A program made the translations under genes and the position numbers. Under the pieces are notes generated by a model. That model saw only the letters and a list, made by a program, of their open reading frames with translations. It was not told the DNA's origin and made no database searches. DNA of 12,085 bases from Leptospiraceae bacterium. Lineage in GTDB: Bacteria > Spirochaetota > Leptospiria > Turneriellales > Turneriellaceae. The DNA is taken from positions 1 through 12,085 of the forward strand of contig JANWWX010000017.1 of assembly GCA_025057195.1 (NCBI GenBank), given 5' to 3'. Of the stretch, positions 1,003 to 5,315 are shown one piece after another (the stretch's first letter is position 1; each line of letters opens with the position of its first letter).

Positions 1003-2261
1003 CAGAACCTCTCCTGCTCGTTGGGGAATTTACGCTCACGCACGTCGGCCGCGTATTGTTCTACGGCACTGATGACACTGGCGCTGAGATTGGCGTAGCG
1101 GCGCACAAAGCGCGGCGAAAAGTCGGGGTCAAGCCCCAAGAGGTCGTTTAACACCAGCACCTGGCCATCGGTAAGGTCGCCGGCACCAATGCCAATGGTT
1201 GGAATCGAAAGAGAAGCCGTGACACGCCCGGCCAGCTCGGTGGGGACCATTTCGAGTACAATCGCAAACACGCCGGCTTTCTCAAGCGCAGCGGCGGCAC
1301 GCAGGATATTTTCCGCACTAGACGGGGTTTTGCCCTGCACACGGTAACCCCCGAATGCCAAAAGCGATTGCGGGGTGAAACCCAAGTGTCCCATCACAGG
1401 AATGCCACTTTTGATGAGCGCGCGGATCTGCGGTAAAAATAGCCCCTCCAGTTTGACAGCATCGGCTCCCGTCTCTTTGATGATCCGCCCGGCGTTGGCT
1501 ACGGCATCCCGGACTGAAGTCTGATACGACAGGAAGGGCAGATCGACAATGAGGAATGCCTGTGGGGCGCCGCGGCGGACAATCCGTGCGTGGTAAACCA
1601 TTTCCTCCACAGTCACCGGCAGCGTGTTGGCATGCCCCTGCATTACATTGCCGAGCGAATCACCGACCAAGATGGCATCAATCGAGGTGCGCGCCAAAAG
1701 CCTGGCGAAGGCATAGTCATAGCAAGTGACGACGGCAATTTTTTCACCTAAGGATTTTTTTTTGGCAAAGTCTTGGATGTTCATGATCGTACGCCCCCGG
1801 ATGCGGGCATAGCGTAGCCCTACCTCCGGGTCTATGGCGTCGGGCTTGAGTTCACACATAATCTGTCGAACCCATTCGCGTGCCCGGTTGAAAGGATGTG
1901 GGATGTGCAGCTGTGCGCTGCGGAATGTACCCCCCGAAAACCAAACGATGTCGATGTCGATTTCACGGGGTCCATTTTTAATGCGCGGGATACGCCCAAT
2001 TTCTTTCTCCAAAGCCAAAATTTGCCCAAGCAATGCTTCCGGCTCTGTGGTCGTTTCAAGCCAAACCCCCTGGTTGAGGAATTTTCCCTGCGCGCGGATT
2101 AGGATTGGCCAGGTCTCATAGCGGCGAGTCGTGGCCCGGACGGTGCCCAACCGCGCCAGGCCGCTGATGGCCTGGTCGAGGTAGAAATTCCGATCGCCAA
2201 CGTTGCTACCTAAAGCTAAGATGTATTCGAATTTCACTGGGTGGGTTTCTGGGCCAACCAC
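1002..2261 (-). CDS. folK-panB: FolK-PanB fusion: HPPK domain joined to ketopantoate hydroxymethyltransferase
   Basis: One uninterrupted 419-codon frame carries two complete enzymes. Residues about 10-155 are HPPK (FolK), which pyrophosphorylates 6-hydroxymethyl-dihydropterin in folate synthesis: ALGSNVGDR at 16-24, GKFLNQGV at 59-66, and NGPREIDIDIVW at 96-107 with the paired Mg-binding aspartates D102 and D104. LHIPHP (118-123) and the following Arg match the family C-terminus. Residues 160-419 are PanB, which makes ketopantoate from ketoisovalerate and 5,10-methylene-tetrahydrofolate: VGDSLGNV (D201), VDLPF (D240), KLEG (E272) as metal ligands, GHLGFTPQS, GGYRVQGK, LEMVP with the probable catalytic E337, and IGIGAG. 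Both sites look intact. The GTG at 2261 has an AGGAAG seven bases upstream. A GTG at 2237 would overlap the upstream TGA as GTGA and give the usual HPPK N-terminus (MKFEYILALGSN), so the start is uncertain. An internal ATG at 1784, preceded by GGGGG, could also yield free PanB. Confidence 0.95.
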   Translation of the reverse strand: MVGPETHPVKFEYILALGSNVGDRNFYLDQAISGLARLGTVRATTRRYETWPILIRAQGKFLNQGVWLETTTEPEALLGQILALEKEIGRIPRIKNGPREIDIDIVWFSGGTFRSAQLHIPHPFNRAREWVRQIMCELKPDAIDPEVGLRYARIRGRTIMNIQDFAKKKSLGEKIAVVTCYDYAFARLLARTSIDAILVGDSLGNVMQGHANTLPVTVEEMVYHARIVRRGAPQAFLIVDLPFLSYQTSVRDAVANAGRIIKETGADAVKLEGLFLPQIRALIKSGIPVMGHLGFTPQSLLAFGGYRVQGKTPSSAENILRAAAALEKAGVFAIVLEMVPTELAGRVTASLSIPTIGIGAGDLTDGQVLVLNDLLGLDPDFSPRFVRRYANLSASVISAVEQYAADVRERKFPNEQERF

Positions 2262-2902
2262 GCCTCGACTTCCTGCTGTTTCTGCTTCAACCGCAGCAGG
2301 TGGTTTGCCGTGAAAACCGTATAGTCAATATCGCCAGCCAGGATGTCGGCACGGATCGTCTCAAGCCCCGGCAGGTCTATTTCAAAATTGTACGAGGAGG
2401 CTTCCAAGGCCAGCTCCTTTGCCTTTTTCCAATACGGCATCGATTCGCGGTAATAGCGTTCTGCTTGAGCAAACGACTCTTTGAGTTCGGGGGCAAAGTC
2501 GAGATTGTAAAAGTAAAGATGGCGCTTGTCAAAAAGCGACGCTAAACGCAGGTAAGAGCGCATGATCTGCAAATTGAGGTGCATGTGGATCAACAAGCGG
2601 TACTTATGGTATTCTTCGGGGTTGCGGATCGGGCAAAGCGCCTCGCGCGGATGGCGGAATTTCTTTTCGAGTGCGACCTTCAGGAAAAATATATTGCGCC
2701 GGATTTCTTCCTGCTGGTAGAGTTGGCGAAAGCTATAAAGCAAGAAAAAGTCCTCCACAAATTGTGGCGACCATTGGTGTAGCCTTTTGGGGATCCAGTC
2801 AGAAAATTTGGTGAACATCCCAGACTGGTCGTAATAATAGTCGAGCCGGAGCTGTGCATAAAGCGGCAGTGTCAAAAAAAGCAGGACCCACCATTTCGCC
2901 AC
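2234..2902 (-). CDS. Unrecognised exported alpha-helical protein (222 aa)
   Basis: I do not recognise this family. The N-terminus (MAKWWVLLFLTLPLYAQ) looks like a Sec signal peptide: one Lys, a hydrophobic core at about 4-14, and an A-Q cleavage site near residues 16-17. The mature part is rich in Tyr, Phe, Leu, Glu and Lys and appears mostly helical; residues about 144-168 (AQAERYYRESMPYWKKAKE and on) resemble a TPR-like helical hairpin, but I see no clear repeat register. It has only one cysteine (90) after the signal and no catalytic motif. The start is GTG; an in-frame ATG does not fit the signal peptide as well. Its 3' end overlaps the folK-panB gene by 28 nt (or by 4 nt as GTGA if that gene starts at 2237), and it lies 49 nt downstream of the BrkB-like gene. 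A periplasmic or outer-membrane-associated scaffold is possible but unproven. Confidence 0.75.
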   Translation of the reverse strand: MAKWWVLLFLTLPLYAQLRLDYYYDQSGMFTKFSDWIPKRLHQWSPQFVEDFFLLYSFRQLYQQEEIRRNIFFLKVALEKKFRHPREALCPIRNPEEYHKYRLLIHMHLNLQIMRSYLRLASLFDKRHLYFYNLDFAPELKESFAQAERYYRESMPYWKKAKELALEASSYNFEIDLPGLETIRADILAGDIDYTVFTANHLLRLKQKQQEVEAWLAQKPTQ

Positions 2903-2951: not shown

Positions 2952-5315
2952 TCAATCGCCCTGCATCAGCTGTGCCAGTGTCACATTGCGGAAGACCCGT
3001 CCACGGTTGAGTTCCAATTGGTCGAAATATTCCTTGACTTTGCGCATGAAACTATCTTTAGGATTGTAATCCGGTATGGAATAGTCCGAAGGATCGAGGT
3101 CTTCGAGCAAGGTACTGATGCGGATCAAATCGGGGTGCATCGCCAGCACCCAACGGTGGTTTTCTGTCTCGGTGACATAGTTGCGTGCTGCCAGGCGCTC
3201 CATAATAAACTTGAATTCCTCCTGATCGCCAGAAGTATATTTGATCAACACATCGGTGGTGCAGTCGTTCTTGCCAGTAAAGAAAGCCTGTGCCAGTCGG
3301 CGTAGGATGCTGATACCATACCAAAGCTGGCGTTTGTGCCGTTCGGCAAGTTCCGCCTTTTTGCTCAACCGCAAGAGCTGGGGGTACTGGTTAAAGAACG
3401 CGATTTCGGCACCGAAAAGCACAATCAACGCGGAAACATAGAGCAAAAGCAAGGTGAGTGGCACCAGCGCGAGCGTGCCATAAAGCGCTGCTGTGCCTTT
3501 GGAAAAATGGGTCACATAGTATTTGTAGAGCAAAAGGAAGATGACCCACGAGATGGAAGTGACTGTCGCACCGATGGCAGCAGCCCGCCACTGCACAAAG
3601 GTGTAAGGGATGACTTTGTAGAGGGTGAAAAAGAGCAGGAAAATGACTAAAAACGGGATGAGCAGGTTGCCGAGCGCCGAAATCACCCGCCGCCAGAGCG
3701 GTGCTTTCTGGATGATTTTGAAACTTTTCATGCTGTCGGGTTTATTGCCATCGTGCAGCGCCTGCAGCATGACATAGTGATCCCCGACGGCGATGAATTT
3801 GGATTCCTTGGCAAAATAGCGCACGGCGTGCAAATCCACATCCGGGATATCAGAGAATGCTTCCCATTCGATGGTGCTATCCGGCAAGAAACGGGTATAG
3901 CGCAAAAGGCCATCACGCCCAACTGCCACGGCGTTGCCGTCGGGGGCTGCCGCAACATCCTGGAAAAATAGGGTTTCAGCGGTGGCCACGGGCTTCCAGC
4001 TTGTGCCTGCGTCGCGCGAAACGAGCAGCAGTCCCGCCTCGCCCACAATATAGGCATAATTTTCGGCGACAGCAATCCCGGTGATCGACTCCCGGCGTGG
4101 GCGCAGCGCACTGAGCACAGGTTTAAACGGCGTGAATGTCTCCCCCGCGTCCTCGGTCAAAAGGGCTGTGCTGTCGTCGCCGACCAAAAGCCAGGCCCCC
4201 GGGCGCAGCCGCGCGATTTGGTGTAAATTGGCACTGAGCCCCTGTTGGTAGTTGGGTTGCCAGGTCTCTCCGCCATCGGTGGTACGTAAAATCAAACCGT
4301 CGCTGCCAATGATGACTGCGCTGCGTTCGGTAATAAACTGCATGCGACGGAACGAGACCTCATAAACTCGGCCCTCTTGCTCTCGGTAGAAACGGCGTAC
4401 GCGGAATTTGTTGCCGTCTTTGCTGATGAGCAGGATCCCATTTTCAGTGATGATGAATTCGGTGTTGCCCGAACGGGCATAATCCACGAAAACAGCATTC
4501 CGTAGCATCGAGGCATCTGCCCGCGCTGCGCTGTCCACGATGTCTTTGCGGCTTTCTGGAATTATGGTATTGCGCGCGCCATTAAAGACAATGCGCTGGT
4601 TATCGACCTCGTAATCCACACCGCGCAGGATATTTTTTTCTTTAAACGGTTTGCCCTTTTCGCTTTGGACCAGAAAGACTTGCTTGTCACCCAGGATCTG
4701 CACGGTGTCTTGTGCGATGTGTACCTGGCGGAAATTGGGCGAGGCAAATTTGGCCAAGATGGACTGCGCGAGACTGATGCCCACCGCCAAGACAGCCGGG
4801 CCAAAGACCATGACCATGATGAAACCTGCGATTTTCTGCAACATGGGCCGTTTGCGGTTCACCCGCCAGATGCGGTTGATAGCATCCTCGATGTTGCGCA
4901 GGACACTCGTCGCAGAAAAAAGCAATACCAAAAAACCCACGCCGCCGATGGCGCCGGCATTTTTCAAAAATTCGCGGATGATGTTGAAATAGGGTTCGAG
5001 ATCGATCTTCAGGCCATTGAGTCGGGCAAAGTCGGCGATGCGGTCGAAATAGAGCTCAATGTCGATGAAGCGCGAACCAACCATCATGACCACGACCAGT
5101 GTCGGTACAAAGCTCACGACAATTGCGTAGCTGATTGAGGCACTGCGCAACAGGACTTCGTCATCGAGGAATTTGCGAAAGGTCGCCATGGCAAAGAGGA
5201 TCGACGACTGCAGTTTTCGCTGCAGTTTACGGGTTTCATCAAACTCCCCAGAAAGAGTTTTCGCAAAAAAGTCTTTGATCCTCAAAACCAATCCCGGCTT
5301 TTGCGACTCAGCCAT
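2952..5315 (-). CDS. BrkB/YihY-type membrane protein with a large inserted BNR/Ycf48-like repeat domain
   Basis: This 787-residue protein is about two and a half times the usual BrkB/YihY length. Membrane segments are near 60-82, 121-139 and 163-188, then 548-568, 578-600 and 610-640. BrkB-like signatures flank the gap: SATSVLRNIEDAINRIWRV before it, and VIPYTFVQWRAAAIGA plus ALYGTLALVPLTLLLLYVSA and GAEIAF after it. Residues about 190-545 are an insert with repeats spaced 41-46 residues, of the form G-x-D-G-L-(x)-T-x-D-G-G-x-T-W: 289-309, 334-356 (SDGLILRTTDGGETW), 376-397 (LLTEDAGETF), 422-443 (SRDAGTSW), 463-487 and 508-523. This suggests a beta-propeller of six or seven blades. Positive-inside reasoning (RVNRKRP in the 141-162 loop) places the insert in the periplasm. 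Residues about 655-787 look like a cytoplasmic winged-helix-like tail. Function of the family is unclear; the old RNase BN label is considered wrong. A perfect Shine-Dalgarno precedes the ATG. Confidence 0.9.
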   Translation of the reverse strand: MAESQKPGLVLRIKDFFAKTLSGEFDETRKLQRKLQSSILFAMATFRKFLDDEVLLRSASISYAIVVSFVPTLVVVMMVGSRFIDIELYFDRIADFARLNGLKIDLEPYFNIIREFLKNAGAIGGVGFLVLLFSATSVLRNIEDAINRIWRVNRKRPMLQKIAGFIMVMVFGPAVLAVGISLAQSILAKFASPNFRQVHIAQDTVQILGDKQVFLVQSEKGKPFKEKNILRGVDYEVDNQRIVFNGARNTIIPESRKDIVDSAARADASMLRNAVFVDYARSGNTEFIITENGILLISKDGNKFRVRRFYREQEGRVYEVSFRRMQFITERSAVIIGSDGLILRTTDGGETWQPNYQQGLSANLHQIARLRPGAWLLVGDDSTALLTEDAGETFTPFKPVLSALRPRRESITGIAVAENYAYIVGEAGLLLVSRDAGTSWKPVATAETLFFQDVAAAPDGNAVAVGRDGLLRYTRFLPDSTIEWEAFSDIPDVDLHAVRYFAKESKFIAVGDHYVMLQALHDGNKPDSMKSFKIIQKAPLWRRVISALGNLLIPFLVIFLLFFTLYKVIPYTFVQWRAAAIGATVTSISWVIFLLLYKYYVTHFSKGTAALYGTLALVPLTLLLLYVSALIVLFGAEIAFFNQYPQLLRLSKKAELAERHKRQLWYGISILRRLAQAFFTGKNDCTTDVLIKYTSGDQEEFKFIMERLAARNYVTETENHRWVLAMHPDLIRISTLLEDLDPSDYSIPDYNPKDSFMRKVKEYFDQLELNRGRVFRNVTLAQLMQGD

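Follow-up and report, generated by a model that had tools for sequence, protein, structure and literature searches.

Domain organization of a split BrkB/YihY protein

The window, i.e., the whole stretch of 12,085 nucleotides analysed here, contains an open reading frame on the minus strand that runs from an ATG at position 5315 down to position 2952 and encodes a protein of 787 aa. The Pfam profile for BrkB (PF03631) matched this protein in two pieces (profile positions 2-138 and 158-254, total E 9.2e-41) separated by ~345 residues. The score was 140.6 bits against a cut-off of 33.7, and each half alone exceeded the cut-off. A match to the PSII_BNR/Ycf48 profile was located between the two halves (E 4.7e-12). 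Six strong hydrophobic segments were identified (residues 61-79, 121-139, 162-180, 547-565, 578-596, and 616-634); a weak seventh peak (414-432) lies within the insert and was excluded from the count. This is in agreement with the earlier note on this DNA, which had described a BrkB/YihY protein interrupted by a large insert between the third and fourth membrane segments.

As assigned by profile matches and hydrophobic segments, the N-terminal tail and TM1-TM3 with the first BrkB half occupy positions 4746..5315 (residues 1-190), and TM4-TM6 with the second half positions 3381..3698 (residues 540-645). The insert lies at 3708..4745 (residues 191-536), and a winged-helix tail of the Rrf2 type, predicted to be cytoplasmic, at 2952..3353 (residues 655-787 plus stop codon). 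Directly downstream on the same minus strand, positions 2234..2902 encode an exported-looking protein of 222 aa without a Pfam match.

AlphaFold2 predicted the ~345-residue insert to form a beta-propeller with pLDDT values mostly between 83 and 93; the membrane part of the full-length model was of low confidence (53-81 per ten-residue block). The predicted propeller comprises 27 strands within residues 195-536, interpreted as seven blades by strand count, and includes the region around 205-224 for which an additional blade had been considered possible. The BNR-type turns proposed earlier were only partly recovered: the propeller stood, while the quoted positions fall short of the actual ones by about 9-11 residues. 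The protein contains just three strict [ST]xDxGxx[WFY] motifs (345, 387, and 433), the motif near 298 is one residue short, and the remaining turns are degenerate. The nearest solved protein to the propeller was Ycf48, both by Foldseek and by profile. Taken together, sequence profiles and predicted structure indicate that the 787-aa protein is a BrkB/YihY inner-membrane protein with six predicted TM segments, a Ycf48-type propeller in the TM3-TM4 loop, and a tail with an Rrf2 fold. The earlier note had proposed a BNR/Ycf48-like propeller and a winged-helix-like tail.

Across 65 split proteins, lysine and arginine residues were denser in loop 2-3 (0.20) and the N-terminal tail (0.18) than in loop 1-2 (0.10) and the insert (0.12), which favours an N-in orientation. 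The bias was weak for the short loop 4-5 (0.11) and the C-terminal tail (0.12), where it does not discriminate between the two sides. With three membrane crossings from an N-in start, we infer that the loop carrying the insert is periplasmic, in line with the orientation suggested before.

Conservation of the propeller

All 65 aligned split proteins, a set that leaves out the fetched loci L082, L084, L090, L104, L105, L111, and L113, carry an insert of 311-383 aa at the same place. The PSII_BNR profile matched 53 of them and a Sortilin-type propeller profile 45. Because a profile built from 24 split proteins matched Ycf48 chains at E 4e-30 and the insertion point is shared by all 65, the split architecture is, at the level of sequence, far beyond chance. 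The propeller is conserved over great distances, yet less than the membrane core (1.61 bits per column compared to 2.46 and 2.66 for the core), and its conserved positions belong mainly to the Asp-box scaffold. We found no conserved basic patch in the propeller: within residues 191-536, only positions 211 and 308 are lysine or arginine in more than 60% of the proteins (weighted, 113 rows).

Distribution of the split form

In the class to which the window belongs, BrkB matches were found in 43 out of 48 genomes, and 39 of these 43 encode a split gene whose insert is complete; that of G006 is truncated N-terminally by the end of its contig. This count is our reading of the search matches and of the fetched loci, the latter without G023 and G046. 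The remaining four genomes contain pieces of the gene: a C-terminal half at a contig end (G008), halves on two contigs (G023), an N-terminal half in a 582-aa frame (G046), and a split BrkB broken into two overlapping open reading frames of 327 and 412 aa (G027; locus L064, family f6). One genome (G011) has a plain BrkB copy in addition to the split one. Across the phylum, BrkB was matched in 275 out of 392 genomes. Homologues with the same insert, a search for which the earlier note had called, were recovered beyond the class in seven further families of Spirochaetota (f12, f23, f31, f35, f39, f41, and f46; 49 chosen genomes). All 33 loci fetched from these families encode a protein of 742-831 aa, and the 26 that were aligned have inserts of 311-319 aa. 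In the same families, one genome lacks the insert (G143, f23) and five unfetched genomes show cut or separate pieces (G181, G193, G196, G206, and G216). The sampled BrkB proteins of f22, f34, f43, f47, f49, and others are unsplit. For comparison, BrkB/YihY was matched in 10 out of 14 control genomes.

Protein searches gave a similar picture. Both domains were present in 37 out of 48 matches of the first search (six organism names, all Spirochaetes) and in the best 120 of 391 matches of a further one (sixteen organism names, all Spirochaetes). The genus Leptospira was not among the names listed. Among 38 loci inspected, 13 had the split form (L006 being cut at a contig end); the record titles of 12 name Spirochaetes, whereas that of L009 names Caldithrix. 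The latter title was taken as a labelling error, since a contig of identical length (20,824) belongs to a genome of the window's own family (L073). A fusion or assembly artefact was likewise rejected, given that both domains occur in many protein matches and the split form on many separate contigs. A search with the short forms of family f5 yielded 11 matches: eight BrkB proteins, five of which also matched PF14870, and three propeller proteins without BrkB, one of them named Candidatus Eisenbacteria.

Among the matches listed for 992 sampled genomes of four other phyla (198, 199, 299, and 296), no fused BrkB-propeller frame was found, and a wide spread of the fused form beyond Spirochaetes was therefore rejected. 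One 661-aa frame with two internal stops matched profile positions 279-555, which is nearly all propeller. The positive control was matched in all 15 propeller genomes. However, a divergent fused form could have been missed, since at most 3-5 first-look candidates were scored per genome, cut-offs were set to 1e-30 (one phylum) or 1e-40, and the weakest control (G011) reached 3.1e-49 over profile positions 10-383 only. On the sequence evidence, the split form is a recurrent, conserved design and not an oddity.

Gain and loss of the propeller

Phylogenetic trees of the membrane core were built without the insert from 107 rows (112 minus five near copies) and from a stricter set of 91 rows, from which 16 long-branch or second-copy rows were also removed. 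Not included were L045 (cut N-terminus) and L121 and L150, whose matches did not comply with the length limit. The split label required two changes on both trees. The branch of the gain was supported by an SH-aLRT value of 91 in the 107-row tree and by 94/88 in the 91-row tree, with a bootstrap range of two to three changes. If the root lies outside the group, the two changes are one gain, with moderate support, and one loss. The insertion would thus most simply have occurred once in a spirochaete lineage and would thereafter have been kept as a module.

The lineage of the loss lies inside f23 and is represented by locus L125, situated on a 303-kb contig, in frame, with core and tail intact and no propeller. 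By its sequence, L125 is a natural propeller-less orthologue. A phmmer search of this orthologue against the PDB gave a single match (E 1.7), taken as chance. As one lineage lost the propeller, the domain is not indispensable everywhere. Several genomes of f23 and f41 also contain a second, distant plain BrkB.

The C-terminal tail

Among the matches listed, the tail corresponds to the full Rrf2 winged-helix fold including its C-terminal helix. The Rrf2 profile PF02082 was passed by 2 out of 65 split proteins at E 0.001. We found no set of cluster-binding cysteines in the tail, with no column containing cysteine in more than 36 out of 113 rows. Such a set is not present in every Rrf2 protein. 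The tail is absent in 15 of the 65 propeller proteins, all from f5. Conversely, it occurs without a propeller in L125, while L017 and L018 extend 256-257 aa beyond the insertion point, and profile positions 528-768 also matched unsplit frames of 430-490 aa among the matches listed. Propeller and tail thus come and go separately, and the tail is probably a cytoplasmic module of its own.

Other spirochaete BrkB proteins also carry additional regions. An unsplit BrkB (L147; genome G341, family f34) has a cyclic-nucleotide-binding (cNMP-binding) domain at the position of the tail and ~230-250 additional residues ahead of the membrane core. This cNMP tail suggests that cytoplasmic regulatory tails are usual in the BrkB family. 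A 624-aa BrkB frame of family f16 (L123; G057) likewise has ~230 residues ahead of the core.

Gene neighborhood and LpxC

No partner gene consistently linked to the split BrkB across families was seen in the loci fetched. The commonest neighbor, a convergent TonB-C-type protein at position +1 on the opposite strand, was present at 25 out of 71 loci, and an operon logic was rejected because these 71 loci revealed no operon shared between families. The 222-aa protein downstream is adjacent and on the same strand in four of nine fetched loci of the window's family (L076, L077, L079, and L080). Homologues exist in 45 out of 48 genomes of the class and are unlinked elsewhere in the loci fetched. 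In four near relatives, this protein is 84-88% identical compared to 60-65% for the BrkB protein. A search against the PDB returned nothing at 0.01 (single match E 0.81). The 222-aa protein may thus share an operon with the split gene, but solely in the family of the window. At positions 1002-2261 of the window, a minus-strand open reading frame encodes 419 aa with FolK (HPPK, residues 14-140) and PanB (160-415). The same FolK-PanB combination appears as a single continuous match in L076, L077, and L080; in L093, FolK and PanB lie side by side in different frames, interpreted as overlapping genes.

LpxC was surveyed in 80 of 97 intended genomes, i.e., 40 propeller genomes and 40 others (G052, G056, and G060 among the latter lack a BrkB match). 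It was detected in 21 of the propeller genomes, with 19 giving no match, and in 15 of the others. Since LpxC occurs with and without the propeller, the propeller is not tied to lipopolysaccharide (LPS), is not supported as an LPS marker, and is unlikely to serve an LPS-only role. All 18 tested propeller genomes of the window's class had LpxC.

Comparison with known systems

The core of the split protein, with its six predicted TM segments, resembles that of the BrkB/YihY/YhjD family (PF03631, TIGR00765), both halves scoring well above the family cut-off, and long forms of this family share the C-terminal tail among the matches listed. The ~345-residue propeller between TM3 and TM4 distinguishes the split form, as ten unsplit controls have 0-24 aa at this point. 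BrkB proteins of family f14 (L114, L115, and L117) are also from Spirochaetes and also combine an Rrf2 tail with additional residues in a loop predicted to face outward. However, their insert of ~100-140 residues is situated between TM5 and TM6 and has no Pfam match, and on the 107-row tree these proteins fall outside the propeller group. The tail shares its fold with Rrf2 regulators such as IscR and CymR but is membrane-tethered and lacks conserved cluster cysteines.

Ycf48/HCF136 (PF14870) likewise presents a BNR-type propeller beyond a membrane, the side being a prediction in our case. According to PMC10403576, Ycf48 is a seven-bladed propeller with a six-residue arginine patch that binds the lumenal face of D1. 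In contrast to this separate protein, the spirochaete propeller is part of a membrane protein and conserves no such patch, and the score against the Ycf48 equivalog model NF010237 was 43.2 of 326 bits, far below the cut-off. For YhjD of E. coli, PMC3219608 reports binding of rough LPS, co-purification with LptB, and genetic interaction with lptBCFG; a retraction notice of another paper also names YhjD (PMC12169533). In the open-access literature, with subscription papers and bioRxiv mostly outside its scope, our search listed no paper with a title or opening of an abstract on a BrkB protein with a propeller, and none mentioning Ycf48 and BrkB together. The split architecture is thus apparently undescribed, in line with the earlier note.

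Potential function of the split protein

With a probability of roughly one half, we favour the reading that the propeller serves as a docking platform in the periplasm and that the inner-membrane protein carrying it takes part in envelope homeostasis, probably that of lipids. The preference derives from the analogies to Ycf48 and YhjD (PMC10403576, PMC3219608). The propeller would act as Ycf48 does for photosystem subunits and might hold a periplasmic or outer-membrane-side partner beside the BrkB core, which in turn would work in envelope homeostasis as reported for YhjD. The lipid link comes from this one distant relative. The absence of a consistently linked partner gene, the missing Ycf48-like arginine patch, and the single loss of the propeller argue against docking. 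Another candidate is an assembly function, in which the propeller would receive new membrane or envelope proteins beside the core, a role comparable to that of Ycf48 or of EMC1 with its lumenal propeller. Ycf48 being the nearest solved protein is consistent with this, as is a match of one of the 65 proteins to the EMC1 propeller profile (E 2e-5); however, the EMC1 match is confined to this one member and the arginine patch is not kept, which leaves an assembly factor rather unlikely.

The earlier note had instead suggested that the propeller could sense a periplasmic ligand or partner and pass a signal through the core; in the form considered here, the signal would reach the Rrf2-like tail. 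A periplasmic and a cytoplasmic module flanking one membrane core, the complete Rrf2 fold, and the cNMP-binding domain of L147 would fit a sensor. The independent loss of propeller and tail nevertheless argues against obligatory signalling from one to the other, no cysteine set is conserved in the tail, and conservation in the propeller is mostly structural. A signalling role is therefore not supported, and we consider the sensor rather unlikely. Quite improbable, in our view, is a combination of these elements into a one-piece envelope monitor, in which the propeller would grip a periplasm-spanning partner (e.g., a lipid bridge), the BrkB core would gate or anchor it, and the tail, where kept, would read out its state in the cytoplasm. 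An adaptor that aids a YhjD-like core in LPS export could be argued by analogy from the YhjD data (PMC3219608) and from the LpxC genes throughout the window's class, but the 19 propeller genomes without an LpxC match and the 15 others with one had already weakened this idea and make it very unlikely. We give still less credence to a glycan enzyme or lectin with a GH74- or sialidase-like domain. The GH74 chains among the matches listed contain two propellers and have ~700 or more residues compared to ~345 here, and the conserved residues of our propeller are mostly Asp-box scaffold.

A propeller fixed to the core may offer a bait for the periplasmic contacts of BrkB/YihY proteins, and the natural propeller-less orthologue a matched control. 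If the envelope monitor were true, it would represent a novel type of trans-envelope device that is specific to Spirochaetes. The propeller appears to be an envelope feature shared by many of the Spirochaetes sampled, and its conserved design may provide a testable handle on the puzzling BrkB/YihY family.
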